Shown piece after piece: positions 1-7,282 of a stretch of 7,282 nucleotides of DNA. Position 1 is the stretch's first letter. Every line of letters begins with the position of its first letter. This DNA is from a bacterium (GTDB lineage: Bacteria; CG2-30-53-67; CG2-30-70-394), in the NCBI GenBank assembly GCA_024278555.1, contig JAJRSX010000066.1, positions 1 to 7,282 on the forward strand, in the 5' to 3' direction. Made by a program: the position numbers and the translations under genes. The notes under the pieces were generated by a model, which worked only from the letters and a program-made list of their open reading frames with translations, searched no databases and was not told the origin of the DNA.

Positions 1-305
1 AGGCCGTAGATGGCGATCCCCTCTGCCAGCCCCACGAAGATCAGGAGGCGGCCGAAGAGCTCCGGCTTCTCCGCCATCGCCCCCACCGCCGCCGACCCCA
101 CCACCGCCACCGCGTAGCCGGCGGCCAGGGCCGAGAGGCCGGTGGCGGCGGCCGCGGCGACCATCCCCCACCGCCAGATCCCCGGGTCGAGGGGGATCCC
201 CGGAGGGGCGGCAGAGGCGGGGACCACCCCCACCAGGACCACGGTGGCCGCGACGCCGAGGAGGAGGGTAAGGAGGGTGAGGGCGACGGCAAGCTTGAGA
301 CGCAT
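1..305 (-). CDS. atpK: V/A-type ATP synthase proteolipid subunit K, 3' end missing
   Basis: This is the membrane ring (c-like) subunit that carries ions through the rotary ATP synthase. About 101 residues are visible and the C-terminus lies off the left edge. An N-terminal hydrophobic, signal-like helix (residues about 4-33, ending in VVPASAAPP) precedes a proteolipid hairpin. Helix 1 is the small-residue segment GLSALAAGYAVAVVGSAAVG (about 56-75), the polar loop is AMAEKPELFG (76-85), and helix 2 contains LAEGIAIYG, in which Glu95 is the expected ion-binding carboxylate. The loop plus LAEGIAIYGL is the family signature. The ATG overlaps the subunit I stop by one base (TGATG), so the two are translationally coupled. 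The visible part fits a single-hairpin ring subunit with a leader helix. A duplicated four-helix form cannot be excluded because the end is missing. No Gln is seen in helix 1, which weakly favours H+ over Na+ (inference). Confidence 0.93.
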   Translation of the reverse strand, partial: MRLKLAVALTLLTLLLGVAATVVLVGVVPASAAPPGIPLDPGIWRWGMVAAAAATGLSALAAGYAVAVVGSAAVGAMAEKPELFGRLLIFVGLAEGIAIYG

Positions 306-2266
306 CACGAGGCTCCTTGGGAGAGGGGCGGGGCGAGGGGGCGGAAGGGGCGCCCCTCCCCGCGCAGGAAACGGGCGAAAAGCTCGAAGAGGACGAGGCG
401 GGTCGTCTGGATGGAGACCACCAGCCCCTCCAGGCCGATGACCAGGAGGTTGCCGGCGATCCAGATAAGCGGCGACGCGGGACCGGCGGCGTGGGCGAGG
501 GTGGCCACCGCCGAGGCGAGGCCGGCGTGGGCGAGGGCGAAGGCGCCGACCCGGGCAAACGAGACGGTGTTCACCAGCAGCCGCTGTGCCTCCTCCACGA
601 GGCGGGCGAGGGCGGGGGCCGGGGCGGACCACCGACCCCCGAAGAGAGCCGCCGCCAGGTGGTAGACCACCGCCGCCACCGCCAACCCGAAGAGGGGTCG
701 GAAGAGGAGCCCGCCGGCGAGGCCGAGGTAGAGGAGGAGGAGCCCCGCCTCCTCCCGGAGCCACCGCCCCCCCTCCCCCACCCACGCCGCCTCCACCCCG
801 GCGAGGAGGAGCCCCCCGGCGAGGAGCACCACCGCCCCGGCGACCGGAACCGACAAGAGGGTGATCGGCTGGTCGAGGGGGTGGATCCAGAGGGGGGGGA
901 TGACCCCCTCCCTGCAGAAGAGGGAGCCGAAGAGGAGGCCGAAGCCGGCGGCGGCGACCCCGCCCACCGCGAGCAGCCGCCACACCGGGCCGCGCCGCCA
1001 CAGGAGGGACCCCGCCACCGCCAGGACCACCCCGTGGCCCACATCCCCGAACATGTAGCCGAACAGCAGGGGCACCACCACCGCCAGCATGGGCGACGGA
1101 TCGACCTCCCCCTCCCCCGGGGTGCCGAGGGCGCGGGCGAAGAGCTCGAAGGGGCGGACCCACGGCCGGTTCACCAGCAACGACGGCGGCCGCACCCCCG
1201 GCGGCGGCGCCGGCAGGGCGAGGAGGGCGGCGATCCCCTCCCACTCCACCGCCCGCACCATGGCCGCCGAATCCGGGGTCCAGCCGGTGATCCGGGCAAA
1301 GAGCGGGGTGCCCGCCACCGGCCCTACCCGCTCCACGAACCACGCCACCGCCCGGAGGTCGGTGATCGCCTCGGCGAGGTGGAGCGCCTCGGCGAGGGTG
1401 AAGAGGGCGACGTAGCCGCGCTCGATCTCCTGCTCCACCTGCGCCAGCCGCGCCGCCAACCGCCCCACCGGGTCGGCGCCGGTGAGCCACGCCGGCCGGG
1501 TCAGGTGGCGGCCGCGCAGCTCCACCAGCCGCGCCACCTCGCGCGCCACCATGGCCGCCGGCCCCACCACCACCACCGCCACCCGGCCGTCGGCCAGGGG
1601 GAGGCGGAGGGCGAGGAGGGGGCGGGGGGGAGACCCCGGCGCCGCCGCCTCCGGGAGGATGATCGTCTCCATCGCCAAGGGTCTGTCGGCAACTGGCGAC
1701 CGCAATGAGGGGAACCGGGCTCGACTCCGGACCGCCTCCCCTTCGGGGCGCACAGTGGGCCTCCGCAACGAAGAACGGGGCGCGATCCGGCCCGGGCGCC
1801 GCCCCCCCGCGGGGGATCGGGCCGGCGGCGAGCCGGCCCCCGGGGCCGGCCCCGACGACAGGAGCGCGGCCACGTCCACCCCCGCGGATGCCAGGGAGGG
1901 GAGGAGCTCCTGCCACCGGCGCAGCCGGTCGCGCTCCGCCTCCAGCCCCTGGACCGTGCGGATCCGCGCCTCCCCCTGCCGCGCCCACCGGTCGAGGCGG
2001 CGGAGTGCGGCGGCCATGGCGTGGCGCGGCGAGCGGGTCAGGGAGGGCGGTGTCGCCGCCACCACCGGCCAGTAGCGGCCGTGGCGACGGGCGAGGTCGC
2101 GGAAACGGGCGACGCCGCGCTCCAAGGCGTCGCCGTGGGCCGGCCCATCCACCACCGCCTCCACCTCCACCACGCCGCTGGCGGCGAGGCAGGTGGCGGC
2201 GCGCACCGCCGACCCCCGCGACACCAGGAGCTCGAACCAGCGCGCCGGTCGCGGACGGAGGCTCAC
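305..2266 (-). CDS. atpI: V/A-type ATP synthase subunit I (stator a-like)
   Basis: This integral membrane stator subunit provides the ion half-channels against the K ring and anchors the peripheral stalk. The call is 653 residues from a GTG that overlaps the upstream stop as GTGA. The product begins VSLRPRPARWFELLV, a good start for the family. The open frame continues 77 codons further upstream, but only as low-complexity Gly/Pro sequence inside the preceding gene. The soluble N-terminal half has a coiled-coil arm (about 80-125) and a second helical arm (about 265-300). The membrane half starts near 390 with the hallmark GYMFGDVGHG (403-412). Two conserved arginines of the a-subunit path are present: Arg572 in SFARVGAFALAHAGL and Arg623 in TTRLVLFELFARF. 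Oddity: residues about 139-197 form an Arg/Pro/Ser-rich stretch with unusual codons, interrupting the arm domain (see the repeat entry at 1676-1851). No stop or frameshift breaks the gene. Confidence 0.95.
   Translation of the reverse strand: MSLRPRPARWFELLVSRGSAVRAATCLAASGVVEVEAVVDGPAHGDALERGVARFRDLARRHGRYWPVVAATPPSLTRSPRHAMAAALRRLDRWARQGEARIRTVQGLEAERDRLRRWQELLPSLASAGVDVAALLSSGPAPGAGSPPARSPAGGRRPGRIAPRSSLRRPTVRPEGEAVRSRARFPSLRSPVADRPLAMETIILPEAAAPGSPPRPLLALRLPLADGRVAVVVVGPAAMVAREVARLVELRGRHLTRPAWLTGADPVGRLAARLAQVEQEIERGYVALFTLAEALHLAEAITDLRAVAWFVERVGPVAGTPLFARITGWTPDSAAMVRAVEWEGIAALLALPAPPPGVRPPSLLVNRPWVRPFELFARALGTPGEGEVDPSPMLAVVVPLLFGYMFGDVGHGVVLAVAGSLLWRRGPVWRLLAVGGVAAAGFGLLFGSLFCREGVIPPLWIHPLDQPITLLSVPVAGAVVLLAGGLLLAGVEAAWVGEGGRWLREEAGLLLLYLGLAGGLLFRPLFGLAVAAVVYHLAAALFGGRWSAPAPALARLVEEAQRLLVNTVSFARVGAFALAHAGLASAVATLAHAAGPASPLIWIAGNLLVIGLEGLVVSIQTTRLVLFELFARFLRGEGRPFRPLAPPLSQGAS
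1676..1851. repeat. Palindromic, atypical in-frame insertion inside subunit I
   Basis: This segment encodes residues about 139-197 of subunit I and looks unlike the rest of the gene. The peptide is Arg/Pro/Ser/Gly-rich. It uses codons that are rare in the neighbours (AGA, CGA, TCA, TTG, CCA, GTT, AGT, TCT, ACT on the coding strand). The DNA is strongly palindromic: GCCGGCCCC/GGGGCCGGC (1832-1840 and 1842-1850, one-base centre), CCCCCGCGGGGG (1804-1815), and CCGGCCC/GGGCCGGC-type arms (1787-1793 with 1819-1825) enclosing the latter. On either side the protein returns to normal subunit I character (LLPSLASAGVDVAALLSSG before, METIILPEAAAPG after). The inference is a repeat-derived insertion that kept the reading frame. 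A linker that simply drifted under GC pressure is the alternative. Edges are approximate. Confidence 0.5.
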
Positions 2267-2946
2267 CCCTCCCCCTCCTCGAACAACCGGCGCACCACCA
2301 GCTCGCCGCGCAGGCGGGCCAGGTCGAGAACCACCAGGGTGAGATAGGCGAGGGGGGCGACCGACTCCGCCGGGTGGCGGCGGACCAGGCGGAGGAGGGC
2401 CAGACGCACCGCCTCCCCCTCCCGCCCCTCCGGCAGGGAGGGCGAGCCCAACTCCCGAAGCCGCTCCGCCACCGGTGCGGGGGAAGGGTCCGGCCACCGG
2501 TCGCGCCAGCCATCGAGCCAGGCCGTGAAGGGGGCGTCACCGCTCGCCGCCCGGTCCAGACCCGCCGCCCCGCCCTCCCGGTACGGGGCGAGGGCGGGAT
2601 CCGCCGCCACCCACGGCGGCATCTCCCCGGCGGCCATCGCCGGCAGGAGCTCCTCCACCGCCAGGTGACGCAGCCACCCCACCGCCGGCCGCCAGCGCGG
2701 CCCGACCCAGCCGGCCACCTCGGCCACCGCCCGCCGCGCCTCACCCCGCATCGCCCGCTCGATCTCGTGGGCGGTGGCGGCGGCGGCGAGGGTGGCGACC
2801 CACGGCGCCACCGGCGACCGGCGCGCCGCCGCCAGGTAGGCGGCCAGGGTGCGGGCGGTGGCCAGGTGGGCCCACACCGCCGCCTCCGGGTGGCGCTCCA
2901 GGCGGGCGCTGATACGCGCCTGGGCATAGACGAGGCCGACCCTCAC
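2263..2946 (-). CDS. atpC: V/A-type ATP synthase subunit C, short AC39-like form
   Basis: The likely role is the central-stalk cap that sits on the K ring and couples rotor to ring. The product is 227 residues and almost entirely helical. The N-terminus GLVYAQARISARL matches the characteristic start of subunit C/AC39 proteins (a Tyr-rich segment followed by Ala-Arg-x-x-Ala-Arg). The C-terminus, APLAYL...DLARLRGELVVRRL (about 197-221), resembles the family's closing motif, where a Pro-x-x-x-Tyr-Leu segment is followed by an Arg-rich helix. Typical members have about 320-350 residues, so this one is markedly shortened. The GTG start overlaps the stalk gene's stop (GTGA), and its own stop overlaps the GTG of subunit I (GTGA), so it sits in the middle of a coupled operon. 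The family call rests on the two end motifs and the position; the middle is too divergent to align by eye. Confidence 0.68.
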   Translation of the reverse strand: MRVGLVYAQARISARLERHPEAAVWAHLATARTLAAYLAAARRSPVAPWVATLAAAATAHEIERAMRGEARRAVAEVAGWVGPRWRPAVGWLRHLAVEELLPAMAAGEMPPWVAADPALAPYREGGAAGLDRAASGDAPFTAWLDGWRDRWPDPSPAPVAERLRELGSPSLPEGREGEAVRLALLRLVRRHPAESVAPLAYLTLVVLDLARLRGELVVRRLFEEGEG

Positions 2947-3284
2947 CGCTCCCCCCCGGTAAGCTCCGCCGCCAGCCGCCGCACCGCCCGCGCCAGGCGC
3001 GCGCCGGTGCCGGCGTCCAGCGCCACCGGCCCCTGGAGCTGCTGCGCCCTTGCCTCCAGGGCGGCGACCCGGGCCTCAACCCGCCGCTCCATCCCCTCGC
3101 GGGCGGCGGTGAGCCGCTGCTCACCGCGGGCGAGGATGGCGCGCGCCCGGGCGCGCCCGGCGGCGACCATCTGCTCCGCCTCCGCCCGCGCCGCCGCCAC
3201 CGCCGCGAGCGCCCGCTGCTCCTCGGCGAGGACCGCCTCGATCCGCGCCGCCACCGCCAGGTCCACCGCCGGTCGCTCTGCCAC
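2943..3284 (-). CDS. V/A-type ATP synthase peripheral-stalk subunit (E/H-like coiled coil)
   Basis: The predicted product of 113 residues is essentially one long amphipathic helix rich in Ala, Arg and Glu (residues about 10-85), followed by a short Gly/Thr break and a last helix (LARAVRRLAAEL). Low-complexity coiled coils of this size at the head of a V/A-type operon are peripheral-stalk subunits, which tie the catalytic head to subunit I. The length is closer to subunit H/G (about 100-110 residues) than to subunit E (about 190-220), so the letter is left open. Two adjacent GTG codons are possible starts (3287 and 3284). A strong GGAGG at 3296-3292 gives spacers of 4 and 7 bases, which favours the second. 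The open frame upstream of the GTGs has no coding character. The stop overlaps the next gene's GTG. Function is assigned mainly from context. Confidence 0.7.
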   Translation of the reverse strand: MAERPAVDLAVAARIEAVLAEEQRALAAVAAARAEAEQMVAAGRARARAILARGEQRLTAAREGMERRVEARVAALEARAQQLQGPVALDAGTGARLARAVRRLAAELTGGER

Positions 3285-3407
3285 CACCTCTCCTCCGTGG
3301 TAACGGCCTCCTCTCCGGCCACCGTCCGCCCCCAGTGTAGCGTGGATCTCCCCCGCAGGCCCGACCCCAATTCTTTCGGCTATCGTCTGGTGCGAAGGGG
3401 GTCGCCC
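3285..3407. promoter_or_regulatory. Divergent intergenic region, ATP synthase operon versus archease
   Basis: This gap of about 120 bases separates the minus-strand ATP synthase genes from the plus-strand archease, so both transcription units may start here. The best -10-like candidate for the ATP synthase side is GCTACACT on the minus strand (TACACT at 3339-3334), about 50 bases before the GTG, but no convincing -35 accompanies it. On the plus side TATCGT at 3381-3386 is a weak -10-like hexamer. A purine run, AAGGGGG (3395-3401), could serve as the archease ribosome binding site, 6 bases from its ATG. None of the promoter calls is strong. Confidence 0.3.
3288..3296 (-). promoter_or_regulatory. 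Shine-Dalgarno of the stalk-subunit gene
   Basis: On the minus strand this reads GGAGGAGAG and lies directly before GTGGTG. The GGAGG core at 3296-3292 is 7 bases from the GTG at 3284, an ideal spacing, and this decides the start of the operon's first visible gene. Confidence 0.7.
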
Positions 3408-3857
3408 ATGCCACACGCTAATGGCTCACCGCCGCCGTGGGAGCACTTCGAACACGGTGCCGACGTGGGGGTGCGCGGCCGCGGCGCCAGCGCGGCAGAG
3501 GCCTTTGCCGCCGCCGCCGTCGCCCTCACCGCGGTGGTCACCGACCCGACGCGGGTGGCCCCCCGCAAGGCGGTGGCGATCGAGGTACGGGAGGCGACGT
3601 TGGAGCTCCTGCTGGTGGCGTGGCTCGACGCCCTGATCTACGCGATGGCGGTGCGCACCATGCTCTTCGGCCGCTTCGAGGTGGCGGTTACCAAGGAGGG
3701 GGAGGCGTGGCGCCTCACCGCCACCGCCTGGGGGGAGGGGGTGGCAGTGGCCCGCCACCGCCCGACAGTAGAGGTAAAGGGGGCAACCTTCACCGAGCTG
3801 CGCGCGGGACCCACCGCCACCGGCGGCTGGATCGCCCAGTGCGTGGTGGATGTCTAA
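3408..3857 (+). CDS. Archease, RtcB activating protein
   Basis: Archease is a small protein cofactor of RtcB. It speeds the guanylylation of the ligase and lets it perform repeated turnovers. The product has 149 residues, normal for the family (about 135-150). Family features in order are: WEHFEHGADVGVRGRG with the conserved acidic Asp19; AAEAFAAAAVALTAVVTD (29-46); the helix LELLLVAWLDALIY (65-78); LFGRFEV (86-92); a His followed by PTVEVKGATFTEL (119-131); and a terminal WIAQCVVDV with Asp148, another conserved acidic position. The ATG at 3408 is chosen because the archease fold starts within 12 residues of it; upstream codons in the same frame show no family similarity. The rtcB gene follows 59 bases downstream on the same strand, the classic neighbour, which strongly supports the call. 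Other proposed roles of archeases as general chaperones are less likely here. Confidence 0.93.
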   Translation: MPHANGSPPPWEHFEHGADVGVRGRGASAAEAFAAAAVALTAVVTDPTRVAPRKAVAIEVREATLELLLVAWLDALIYAMAVRTMLFGRFEVAVTKEGEAWRLTATAWGEGVAVARHRPTVEVKGATFTELRAGPTATGGWIAQCVVDV

Positions 3858-3916
3858 GGCGGGGCGGGGCGCTGCGCCGCCACGCCTCCCGGCCCCTCCT
3901 CGTCTACCTTTGGACC

Positions 3917-5341
3917 ATGGAGGTCGACCGTTTCGAACCGGTGGAGGAGGGGGTGTGGCGCCTGGCGCCCGAGGGACGGATGCGCGTACCCGCCCTCCTC
4001 TTCGCCAGCCGCGCGCTCCTGGCGGCCATGGACGACAAGGTGGCGGAACAGCTCGCCGGGGTGGCGAGCCTGCCGGGGATTGTGGAGGCGGCCTTTGCCA
4101 TGCCCGACGCCCACTGGGGGTACGGCTTTCCCATCGGCGGGGTGGCCGCCTTCGACCCGGAGGAGGGGGGGGTGGTCTCGGCGGGGGGCGTCGGTTTCGA
4201 CATCTCCTGCGGCGTGCGCACCCTCCTCACCGGCCTGCAGGCAGGCGAGGTGCGCGATCACCTGGAGCGGGTGGCCGATGCCCTGTCGCGGGCGATCCCC
4301 GCCGGGGTCGGCTCCCACGGCAGCCTGCGCCTCACCAACGCGGAGATGGAGGCGATGCTCACCGGCGGTGCCCGCTGGGCGGTGGCGCGCGGCTACGGCG
4401 AGGAGGCGGACCTGGAGCGGGTCGAGGAGGGGGGACGGCTGGCCGGCGCCGACCCGGCGGCGGTCTCGGAGCGGGCCAAGGTGCGCCAGCGCGACGAGGT
4501 GGGGACCCTCGGCTCGGGCAACCACTACCTGGAGGTGCAGGTGGTGGACCGCCTCTACCGGGCGGAGGTGGCGGCACGTCTCGGCCTGGTGGAGGGGGAG
4601 GTGGTGGTGTCGCTCCACTGCGGCTCGCGCGGCCTCGGCCACCAGATCGGCACCGACTACCTGAAGGAGATGGTGGCCGCGGCCGCCCGCCACCACCTCC
4701 ACCTGCCGGACCGCGAGCTCGCCGCCGCCCCCGTCGATTCGCCCCTGGGACGCGCCTACCTGAGGGCCATGGCCGCAGGGGTGAACTGCGCCCTGGCCAA
4801 CCGCCAGGTCCTCACCCACCTGGTACGCCGGGCCCTCGGCCGCCTCTTCCCCGGCCTCGCCATGGACCTCCTCTACGACGTCTCCCACAACACCTGCAAG
4901 GTGGAGTCCCACCCGGTGGGGGGGAGGCGGCGGCGCCTCTACGTCCACCGCAAGGGGGCGACCCGCGCCTTCGGCCCGGGCCACCCGGAGCTGCCGCCGG
5001 CCCTGGCGGAGGTGGGCCAGCCGGTGCTCATCGGCGGCGCCATGGGGACCGCCTCCCACGTGCTCGTGGGCGCGGCCGGGGGACGCGCCTTTGCCTCCGC
5101 CTGCCACGGCGCCGGCCGCGCCATGAGCCGCAACCAGGCGCGCAAGCGGTGGCGCGGCCGCGCGGTGGTGCGCGCCCTCGCCACCGGCGGCGTCCTGGTC
5201 CGCTCCCCCTCCTACCGCGGCGTGGCCGAGGAGGCGCCCGCGGCGTACAAAGACGTGGACGCGGTGGTGGCCGCCACCGAGGCGACGGGCCTCGCCCGCC
5301 GGGTGGCCCGGCTGCGACCGCTGGTCTGCATCAAAGGGTGA
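3917..5341 (+). CDS. rtcB: RNA 3'-phosphate/5'-OH ligase RtcB
   Basis: RtcB is a GTP- and Mn2+-dependent ligase. It joins RNA ends carrying 2',3'-cyclic or 3'-phosphate to 5'-hydroxyl ends, acting in tRNA splicing in archaea and eukaryotes and in RNA repair in many bacteria. The product of 474 residues is full length (family about 400-480). Visible motifs: MPDAHWGYGFPIGGVAAF (62-79); GGVGFDISCGVR with metal ligands Asp95 and Cys98; GSGNHYLE with Asn202 and His203; SLHCGSRGLGHQ with His234; DVSHNTCK with His324; RKGATRAFGPG (345-355); GGAMGTASHVL; SACHGAGRAMSR with His397, the residue that takes GMP; and the terminal CIKG with Lys473. Numbering is nearly that of the Pyrococcus enzyme. No intein is present. 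The ATG at 3917 gives the family N-terminus (MEVDRFEPVEEGVWRL). No clear Shine-Dalgarno precedes it. It is likely co-transcribed with archease. Confidence 0.97.
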   Translation: MEVDRFEPVEEGVWRLAPEGRMRVPALLFASRALLAAMDDKVAEQLAGVASLPGIVEAAFAMPDAHWGYGFPIGGVAAFDPEEGGVVSAGGVGFDISCGVRTLLTGLQAGEVRDHLERVADALSRAIPAGVGSHGSLRLTNAEMEAMLTGGARWAVARGYGEEADLERVEEGGRLAGADPAAVSERAKVRQRDEVGTLGSGNHYLEVQVVDRLYRAEVAARLGLVEGEVVVSLHCGSRGLGHQIGTDYLKEMVAAAARHHLHLPDRELAAAPVDSPLGRAYLRAMAAGVNCALANRQVLTHLVRRALGRLFPGLAMDLLYDVSHNTCKVESHPVGGRRRRLYVHRKGATRAFGPGHPELPPALAEVGQPVLIGGAMGTASHVLVGAAGGRAFASACHGAGRAMSRNQARKRWRGRAVVRALATGGVLVRSPSYRGVAEEAPAAYKDVDAVVAATEATGLARRVARLRPLVCIKG

Positions 5342-5359
5342 GGGGCGTCACCCCCACCC
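5336..5359. terminator. Candidate hairpin terminator between convergent genes
   Basis: GGGTG-A-GGGG (5336-5345) can pair with CCCCCACCC (5351-5359) around a CGTCA loop, giving 9 G:C-rich pairs with one bulged A. It overlaps the rtcB stop (TGA 5339-5341) and lies in the short gap before the mutase stop, so it could serve both convergent transcripts. No T-run follows on either side, so intrinsic termination is uncertain. Confidence 0.4.
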
Positions 5360-5399
5360 GCCGGGCCGGGAGGCCGTCCCCTGCCCCCGAAGCTCCACG

Positions 5400-6845
5400 C
5401 TAAGAGGTCAGCCATCCCTGGGCGGCGTCGAGGAGCTCCGCCGGGTCGCCCCCCGGGGCGGCCTCGCAGTAGAGGCGCACCAGGGGCTCGGTCCCCGAGG
5501 GGCGGACCAGGAGCCAAGCGGTATCGTCGAGGGTGAGGCGGAGGCCGTCGATGCGATCAATTTCGGTGAGCGCGCGGCCGGCGAGGGTCGCCGGGGGGTC
5601 GGCGACGATCCGCTCGGCGACCCGCGCCTGCTCCGCCTCGGTGAGGGTGAGGTCGCGCCGCGCATACGGGCCGACGCCGTACTCCTCGTGCAGGTCGTCC
5701 ACCATCCGGCCGAGGCGCTCCCGACGCTCCCACATCGCCTCCGCCACCAGGAGGGCCAGGTAGGTGGCGTCACGCTCCTTCAAATACCCCTGGATGCCGA
5801 TCCCCCCCGCCTCCTCGCCGCCGATGAGGACGTCGCCGCCGACCATCGCCGCAGCCACATGTTTGAAGCCCACGGGAAGCCGCCGCTCGGGAAGGCCGTA
5901 GCGGCGCGCCATGGCCGGGATGGTGCGTGACAAGTTCACCGCGTGCAGTACGGTGCCGCGCATCTTGCGCACCTCCACCAGGTGGCGCAGGAGGATGAGG
6001 AAGAGGTCGTGGGCGGTGAGGACCCGGTCGCGCTCGTCGATCACCGCCAGGCGGTCGCCGTCCCCATCGGCGACAAAGACCACGTCGCGATCCCACACCA
6101 CCCGCAGCTTTCGCTCAACCGCCAGATTGTCCGCCACCGGCTCGGGCTTGCGACCGCCGAAGGTGACATCGCGCTGGTTCTCGATCTCGCTGATGTTCAG
6201 GCCGCGGTCGGCGAAGGCCTGGGGCAGCAGCCCCTGGGTGGCGCCGCGCATGGAGCTGGCGAGCAACGAGATCCCGCACCGGCGCTGGGGAACCGGCCCA
6301 AGGCAGCGGATCATGTGGGCAAGATAGCCGCGCCGCTCATCCACCACCTTGATTTGTTTCGCCCGCTTGAGCTCCTCGAAGGTGGTGGTGAGCGGCGGGA
6401 TGTCGGCGGCGGTGAGCTCGCTCGCCCGGGCGGCGATCCAGTCTGCCGCCGCGTCGTCGATGGAGCCGCCGAAGGAGGCCTTCACCTTCACCCCGATGTA
6501 GTTCGGGGCGTTGTGGCTGGCGGTGATCATCAGACCGGCGGCGCAGGTCTCGGCAATGACCATGTAGGAGAGGCACGGGGTCGGAATAAAGGTCTTCGCC
6601 AGGCGCACCGGCAGGCCGCGGGCGGCGAAGACCCGCGCCGCCTCCTCCGCCAACACCGGCGCCAACAGCCGGGTGTCGTAGCCGATCGCCACCGGCCGCC
6701 CGTGCCACCCCGCCTCGGCGAGCCAGTCTGCCACTGCCGCGGCGATGCGGCCGACCTGCAGGAAGGTGGGGCCGTGGCCGAGGGGCGTACGCCAGCCGTC
6801 GGTACCAAAGTGGATAGCAGGGATCTCGGCAGTCTCTGGGCTCAT
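5400..6845 (-). CDS. Phosphoglucomutase/phosphomannomutase family enzyme
   Basis: This cytoplasmic alpha-D-phosphohexomutase moves phosphate between C1 and C6 of a hexose phosphate through a phosphoserine intermediate. That feeds glucose-1-P or mannose-1-P into polysaccharide, nucleotide-sugar or glycogen metabolism. The product of 481 residues has all four signatures: TASHNAPNYIGVK with catalytic Ser110; ADGDGDR with Mg2+ ligands Asp260, Asp262 and Asp264; GGEEAGGIG (342-350) for sugar recognition; and RPSGTEPLVRLY (448-459) for phosphate binding. The N-terminal IHFGTDGWR (11-19) and GYDTR (55-59) are also typical. ASHNA replaces the more common ASHNP. The ATG at 6845 places the family start after ten residues; a GTG at 6878 would add 11 residues with no family character. 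Neither has a visible Shine-Dalgarno. Substrate preference (glucose, mannose or glucosamine phosphate) cannot be read from motifs alone; GEEAGG is compatible with a glucose/mannose enzyme. Confidence 0.93.
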   Translation of the reverse strand: MSPETAEIPAIHFGTDGWRTPLGHGPTFLQVGRIAAAVADWLAEAGWHGRPVAIGYDTRLLAPVLAEEAARVFAARGLPVRLAKTFIPTPCLSYMVIAETCAAGLMITASHNAPNYIGVKVKASFGGSIDDAAADWIAARASELTAADIPPLTTTFEELKRAKQIKVVDERRGYLAHMIRCLGPVPQRRCGISLLASSMRGATQGLLPQAFADRGLNISEIENQRDVTFGGRKPEPVADNLAVERKLRVVWDRDVVFVADGDGDRLAVIDERDRVLTAHDLFLILLRHLVEVRKMRGTVLHAVNLSRTIPAMARRYGLPERRLPVGFKHVAAAMVGGDVLIGGEEAGGIGIQGYLKERDATYLALLVAEAMWERRERLGRMVDDLHEEYGVGPYARRDLTLTEAEQARVAERIVADPPATLAGRALTEIDRIDGLRLTLDDTAWLLVRPSGTEPLVRLYCEAAPGGDPAELLDAAQGWLTS

Positions 6846-6966
6846 AGGTCGAGAGGGGTACGGGGCACGGGGAGACACGAAGGGGAGCGGAGTTTGCCGC
6901 GATCCGGTGGCGCTTCGCGAGCCCGGAGGGGCCGAAACCAGGTCAGACGTGGGGCCGGGTCAAAAC

Positions 6967-7105: not shown

Positions 7106-7158
7106 ATCAGCGGGAGGCAGGTGCCGAGTGGGATTTCACCGCAGAGATGGGATGAGGA

Positions 7159-7241
7159 GGCCGCTCTCCTCGCGAGCTCAGGTTCTAACCTGGCTCAATG
7201 CTAACCACGGGCTCGGAGCCCACAAGCAAAGGAGAGCGACC
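7159..7241 (+). promoter_or_regulatory. Structured leader masking the ribosome binding site of the IS110-like gene
   Basis: GGCCGCTCTCCT (7159-7170) pairs with AGGAGAGCGACC (7230-7241) in 11 of 12 positions (one C:A mismatch), closing a domain that ends right at the ATG. Inside are two hairpins. One is GAGC-T-CAGGTT / AACCTG-GCTC (7174-7196, ten pairs, one bulged T, tight loop). The other is GGGCT-CGG-AGCCC (7209-7221). The right arm of the outer stem contains the Shine-Dalgarno AGGAG (7230-7234, 7 bases before ATG), so folding would hide it. This could be a translational brake on the transposase, part of an IS110-type bridge RNA encoded in the left non-coding end, or both. Confidence 0.6.
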
Positions 7242-7282
7242 ATGAAGCAGGCTACCACGCAGACGATCGGAGTGGACGTGAG
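7242..7282 (+). CDS. IS110-family transposase, first 13 codons only
   Basis: Only the N-terminus MKQATTQTIGVDV(S) is visible before the window ends. IGVDVS close to the N-terminus is the usual start of the RuvC-like DEDD domain of IS110-family recombinases, and the Asp of GVDVS would be the first catalytic acid. A good Shine-Dalgarno (AGGAG, 7-base spacing) supports the ATG. A long non-coding, structured 5' end next to such a gene fits the IS110 subgroup, in which the left end encodes the bridge RNA. With only 13 residues, other RuvC/actin-like folds that begin with a Gly-x-Asp motif remain possible. The element's left boundary cannot be fixed here, and no terminal repeat was recognised. Confidence 0.62.
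   Translation, partial: MKQATTQTIGVDV
7242..7282 (+). mobile_element. Left end of a probable IS110-type insertion sequence (partial)
   Basis: Inferred from the transposase start and the structured leader. The coordinates cover only the certain part. The element probably extends left into 7150-7241 or further, since IS110 members carry a non-coding left end before the gene. IS110 elements usually lack long terminal inverted repeats, which agrees with none being visible. Confidence 0.5.

Follow-up and report, generated by a model that had tools for sequence, protein, structure and literature searches.

In this analysis, we identify a conserved, closed three-stem leader that precedes the transposase gene of an IS110-family insertion sequence and that, judging from comparison, folding predictions and analogy with known elements, probably occludes the Shine-Dalgarno (SD) sequence and keeps the transposase scarce, while a separate guide RNA at the right end picks the target. 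The analyzed stretch, referred to here as the window, spans 7282 nucleotides and constitutes one full contig (G000:C35), with the element at its right edge. Its untranslated leader is predicted to close with an outer stem, formed by the left subterminal repeat and the SD region, around two hairpins. Once transcribed, such a leader would occlude the SD and, as a result of that occlusion, lower the rate of transposase synthesis and so limit transposition. The relevant features of the window are as follows:

7134-7146, plus strand: left half of the insertion target, TTTCACCGCAGAG, by comparison with about 25 other left junctions and with right junctions
7147-7241, plus strand: left end and untranslated leader; copies are alike from ATGGGATGAGG, and relatives have the same left end and leader
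7152-7166, plus strand: left subterminal inverted repeat, ATGAGGAGGCCGCTC, whose exact reverse complement, GAGCGGCCTCCTCAT, stands at own-genome right ends
7159-7170, plus strand: left arm of the outer stem, GGCCGCTCTCCT, pairing with 7230-7241; compensatory changes at 4 of 11 pairs
7174-7196, plus strand: hairpin 1, GAGCTCAGGTTCTAACCTGGCTC, with a conserved bulged T; compensatory changes at 5 of 6 counted pairs
7209-7221, plus strand: hairpin 2, GGGCTCGGAGCCC; compensatory changes at 3 of 5 pairs
7230-7241, plus strand: right arm of the outer stem, AGGAGAGCGACC, which includes the SD, AGGAG; from the sequence and the predicted SD pairing
7242-7282, plus strand: start of an IS110-type transposase gene (MKQATTQTIGVDV...), from longer copies (L016, L017, L020 and C16) and the domains of complete relatives

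Comparison with other copies in the genome establishes that positions 7147-7282 are the left end of a multicopy IS110-family insertion sequence. About 25 further left ends occur in the same genome, with left flanks that differ between copies and a common boundary, (C)RGAG/ATGGGATGAGG (the slash marks the junction or break here and below), leftward of which the sequences are unrelated; in most of these copies, the boundary is preceded by TTTCACCAC. Left junctions mostly read TTTCACCACRGAG/ATGGGATG and right junctions ...CTCATGGA/AGACACGGAGG. The AG at 7145-7146 is presumed to be the crossover dinucleotide (core), and the element's first letter, A7147, directly follows this target AG. Copies mostly run into contig breaks, and many contigs break within the element. 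Right ends in this genome, located by way of the target sequence, read ...GGGAGCGGCCTCCTCATGGA/AG, and the subterminal inverted repeat is an exact 15 bp here and about 10-16 bp long in relatives. Many copies have inserted into the end of a palindromic intergenic repeat of 166 bp that is abundant in this genome, and such insertion is probably how the element was amplified; the use of a palindromic repeat as target resembles the use of REPs by other IS110-family elements. The window copy's own site, CCGCAGAG, is one letter off the common target. The palindromic repeat itself, which ends in TTTCACCACAGAGACACAGAG, was observed at about 40 own-genome loci (e.g. C169:27393-27560 and C174:18777-18943). 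Positions 1-6878 of the window, inspected by eye, hold V-type ATPase-like subunits on the minus strand and archease-like and RtcB-like genes on the plus strand, with a phosphoglucomutase-like gene at 5400-6878 on the minus strand.

The 12-base outer stem contains one mismatch (C7161-A7239); its left arm overlaps the subterminal inverted repeat (7152-7166), and its right arm ends immediately before the ATG at 7242. The first-pass annotation of this DNA had described the stem with its mismatch, both hairpins and the SD arm abutting the ATG, and every coordinate it gave was right. The minimum-energy fold reproduces the three-stem structure at -41.6 kcal/mol, with a z of -1.86 relative to shuffles, 11 of 200 of which folded equally well, a modest excess over chance. 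Because the single-sequence fold only mildly beats shuffles, the case for the structure rests on comparison. Searches of Rfam returned no match for the leader at E values up to 1, and loci with both leader and guide had no match at Rfam gathering scores.

The covariation test covered 18 diverse related leaders and 22 named pairs across the three helices. Paired cells amounted to 86.9%, against 76.0 in shuffles and 31-52 in slid-partner controls, and double-change cells numbered 54, against 19.6 and 4-14, respectively. Changes on both sides of a pair were found in all three stems (four pairs in the outer stem, five in hairpin 1 and three in hairpin 2), and RNAalifold, run with the structure unconstrained, recovered essentially the same fold, in which 12 of 18 pairs had compensatory changes. 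Covariation in the outer stem could partly reflect a protein-binding DNA site, since its arms also copy the DNA inverted repeat. The first-pass annotation had held that an absence of compensatory changes in the 7159-7170/7230-7241 stem would tell against it; as these are present at 4 of 11 pairs among the 18 leaders, that objection does not arise. On this comparative evidence, the three-stem RNA of the leader is conserved across several bacterial phyla. Within the window, the predicted probability that the SD is unpaired is 0.02, compared with 0.42 after the upstream leader is shuffled; among relatives, the predicted accessibility has a median of 0.20 versus 0.49 for shuffled leaders and is lower in 18 of 21 elements, the other three (L122, L148 and L159) having an SD that is not less accessible than in shuffles. 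Pairing of the SD within the conserved structure is supported by both the sequence comparison and these folding predictions.

The leader layout recurs in L117, an IS110 element of another genome that is 36% identical over the compared region. A broader scan for relatives, which searched for the left-end signature followed by AGGAG at 58-88 nt, recovered 80 loci among the matches listed, mostly from Acidobacteriota, with the remainder from Planctomycetota, Myxococcota or deltaproteobacterial bins, Actinomycetota and Gemmatimonadota. Among these loci, a few, including L137, L162, L177, L180, L183 and L193, are chance matches in coding sequence. Since the pattern used to choose most relatives demands both the left-end signature and AGGAG, selection accounts in part for how constant the SD is, and for this reason relatives found by other routes were checked. 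The leader model scored 68.7 bits on L248, found by protein search, and 76.6 bits on L040, found by similarity to the window. L247, also found by protein search, gave no match to the leader model; it has a shorter leader and a quite different terminal repeat, and its SD region is still paired by folding. A first viral scan, built on a two-sequence alignment, returned no relatives, and a later one yielded L247 and L248. In a small tree, the leader-bearing elements formed a monophyletic clade (99/99) with IS4321 outside it, IS4321 being a long branch in a tree that samples few named elements. No leader was found in the alphaproteobacterial IS110 elements, ISShdy1, IS5708 or IS4321.

The ATG at 7242 opens a frame that begins MKQATTQTIGVDV and runs for only 13 codons before the contig ends. 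Several own-genome copies continue into an IS110-like frame, and five of them (L011, L016, L017, L018 and L020) carry an identical internal deletion. Searches of the assembly with PF01548, PF02371 and a composite IS110 protein query, an approximate sequence that served as a search seed only, detected no intact transposase of the element. The own-genome fragments aligned to 56-71% with the composite query and, taken alone, had no Pfam match; the 86-aa open reading frame of an internally deleted copy, used as a query in a contig scan, had no matches. Intact relatives bearing the same leader contain both PF01548 and PF02371, the DEDD plus Transposase_20 combination of the IS110 family, in agreement with the first-pass annotation's call of an IS110-like gene. 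A weak match of the recombinase to PDB 8wt6 (IS621) covered residues 212-360.

For the guide analysis, we used 17 complete relatives, each with left end, gene and right end, and read their targets from both flanks. Their right noncoding regions, 251-524 nt in length, hold a bipartite target guide and a donor loop. As reverse complement, these regions match the right target of their own element with a mean longest run of 7.9 nt, compared with 5.4 for the targets of other elements (p = 5e-5), and in the sense orientation, they match the left target with 6.3 versus 5.5 (p = 8.5e-4). The guide follows a recurrent frame, GACTGCG-[right guide]-stem-[left guide]-ATNGCAGC, after which a second loop carries a CCCATC-like stretch, complementary to the left-end GATGGG in several elements, together with ATGGAAG, which corresponds to the right end plus core. 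At fixed positions, the right guide agrees with its target at 6.9 of 9 positions against 4.0 when shuffled (p = 5e-5), and the left guide at 6.1 of 7 against 3.4 (p = 5e-5), to which the shared AG contributes part; a permutation p of 5e-5 is the minimum attainable with 20000 shuffles. Folds of the guide in relatives show the target loop and the donor loop. In the genome of the window, a guide fragment reads GCCACAGAG/ATAGCAGC, and within it, CCACAGAG equals the left target half of the common site used by most copies; contig C157 opens with CGCCACAGAG-ATAGCAGC followed by the donor loop, and contig C129 has the same donor loop leading into the right end. The right target guide of this element is predicted to be complementary to ACACRGAGG, which follows the AG core in the target. 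These sequence matches show that target choice is encoded by a bipartite guide in the right noncoding region, apart from the leader, and we infer that this right-end RNA serves the element as its bridge or seek RNA.

Several further features of the ends were observed. The right noncoding region of L150 contains two successive guide-like target loops, each with a GACTGCG frame, of which the second matches the present target. Among the leader-less IS110 elements, a weak match to the right-end guide model was found in L121 only (1781-1909), directly after the gene of an IS110 element that lies outside the clade, on a Dinoroseobacter plasmid, hinting that right-end guides extend beyond the clade. 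In nearly all elements (e.g. L156, L178 and L181), a TTGACA-like box precedes the right end by about 20 nt, a position suited to forming a promoter once the ends are joined in a circle. Right-truncated copies are also present in the genome of the window (L022, L025, L028, L032, L035, L036, C16 (L062) and C139 (L063)); their break points vary and usually fall at or one letter past AG, as in GGAAGAG/C (three times), GGAGAG/C, GCG/AG and CAAAG/, with L023 and L033 as exceptions. In three copies, the same short right end lies about 149 nt from the left end. These AG-adjacent breaks suggest that the recombinase may use false right ends. In addition, L029 from this genome, L146 from Planctomycetota and L186 from Sulfotelmatobacter are short palindromes that combine a left end and the leader hairpins with a second, inverted left end, and the leader model matches both of their strands; they look like small non-autonomous forms, which are seldom present in IS110 elements.

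The first-pass annotation had left it open whether the leader is part of a bridge RNA, limits translation or does both. Its bridge-RNA reading draws on the IS110 subgroup, e.g. IS621, in which, according to PMC11208160 and PMC11187229, the guide is encoded in the left end, and a conserved, structured leader would fit such a role. However, matches between leaders and the targets of their own elements stay at chance level across the 17 relatives (p 0.39-0.96), a result on which we rejected this reading; moreover, just about 60 nt of leader lie between the arms, and both hairpins lack guide-like internal loops. The complete target and donor guide lies in the right end, in the 17 relatives as in the own-genome fragment, and not in the left noncoding end, where the IS110 subgroup has it; we regard a bridge-RNA leader as highly improbable. 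The translation-limiting half of the suggestion fares better, as the SD pairing is conserved and ISPpu9 offers a precedent, with the effect on translation here an expected consequence.

An unlikely alternative for the arms is that they act primarily as DNA, with the SD arm as a third copy of the subterminal repeat, in a transposase-bound operator that serves autoregulation and makes RNA pairing secondary. The left arm does overlap the subterminal repeat, and its changes are accompanied by changes of the right-end repeat in several elements (AGCC, GGTC and AGTC); yet RNA-stem covariation extends to the inner hairpins, neither of which is a repeat copy, the stem reaches past the repeat into the SD, and the order of the hairpins is kept. 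The occluding leader could instead be a switch, in which, within a transcript across joined circle ends, the left arm is taken up by pairing with the right-end repeat and the SD is released; transposase would then come mainly from the circle. Folding the right end and leader together raises the predicted SD accessibility of the window from 0.02 to 0.93, and accessibility also rises in L150, L167, L196 and L201, but it does not change in most other relatives. A promoter with its -35 at the right-end TTGACA would, furthermore, start downstream of the right-end repeat, so that its transcript would lack that arm, and we consider the switch very unlikely. Binding of the arms by transposase and release of the SD in RNA across the junction might each also act as a supplement to occlusion. 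Unlikely, too, is a leader that senses the state of the element, with the SD closed upon integration and opened in the circle by bound transposase, by guide RNA or by the left arm pairing with the right-end repeat; were it so, transposase synthesis would be coupled to excision.

The transposase leaders of IS10, IS50 and IS200 sequester the SD through an arm, derived from the end of the element, that pairs with the ribosome site and guards against read-through expression. These elements are unrelated to ours, in which the stem encloses two further conserved hairpins. Within the IS110 family, ISPpu9 of Pseudomonas putida has a structured 5'-UTR, likely including the ribosome-binding site, that lowers transposase translation, and mutations weakening this structure raised translation (PMC8450116); the element analyzed here resembles it in its conserved RNA structure pairing the ribosome site. 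ISPpu9 likewise occupies repetitive extragenic palindromes, has an AG direct repeat and encodes a sense RNA downstream of its gene (PMC8450116). It differs in its 244-nt 5'-UTR and its antisense RNA, Asr9 (PMC8450116), against a leader of about 95 nt here. With IS1111-type elements, as described in PMC11187229 and PMC11208160, the clade shares subterminal inverted repeats (about 7-17 bp in that type), a long right noncoding region with a bipartite guide RNA, and the lack of a long target duplication. IS4321, the only IS1111 member in our tree, nevertheless lies far from the clade and matches neither the leader nor the guide model. The likeness to IS621 and the IS110 subgroup lies in the recombinase domains and in a guide with target and donor loops, but IS621 carries its guide in the left end (PMC11208160 and PMC11208158), whereas here the guide occupies the right end and a different RNA structure the left. 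An SD-pairing leader is not mentioned in the portions of the seekRNA (PMC11187229) and bridge RNA (PMC11208160) work available to us.

Singly, IS110-family elements, right-end guides and SD-occluding leaders are each already known; we found no description in the open-access literature of this leader itself or of the phylum-spanning combination of a left-end leader with a right-end guide. IS110-type recombinases are under development as RNA-guided DNA writers, and how their scarcity is controlled within IS110-type elements has been little studied. The clade described here, distributed across several phyla, carries two distinct conserved RNAs at opposite ends: a left leader that would limit translation and a right bipartite guide that can be read. 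This arrangement thereby provides a set of right-end-guided recombinases with sequence-readable targets, along with a testable case of recombinase dosage control.
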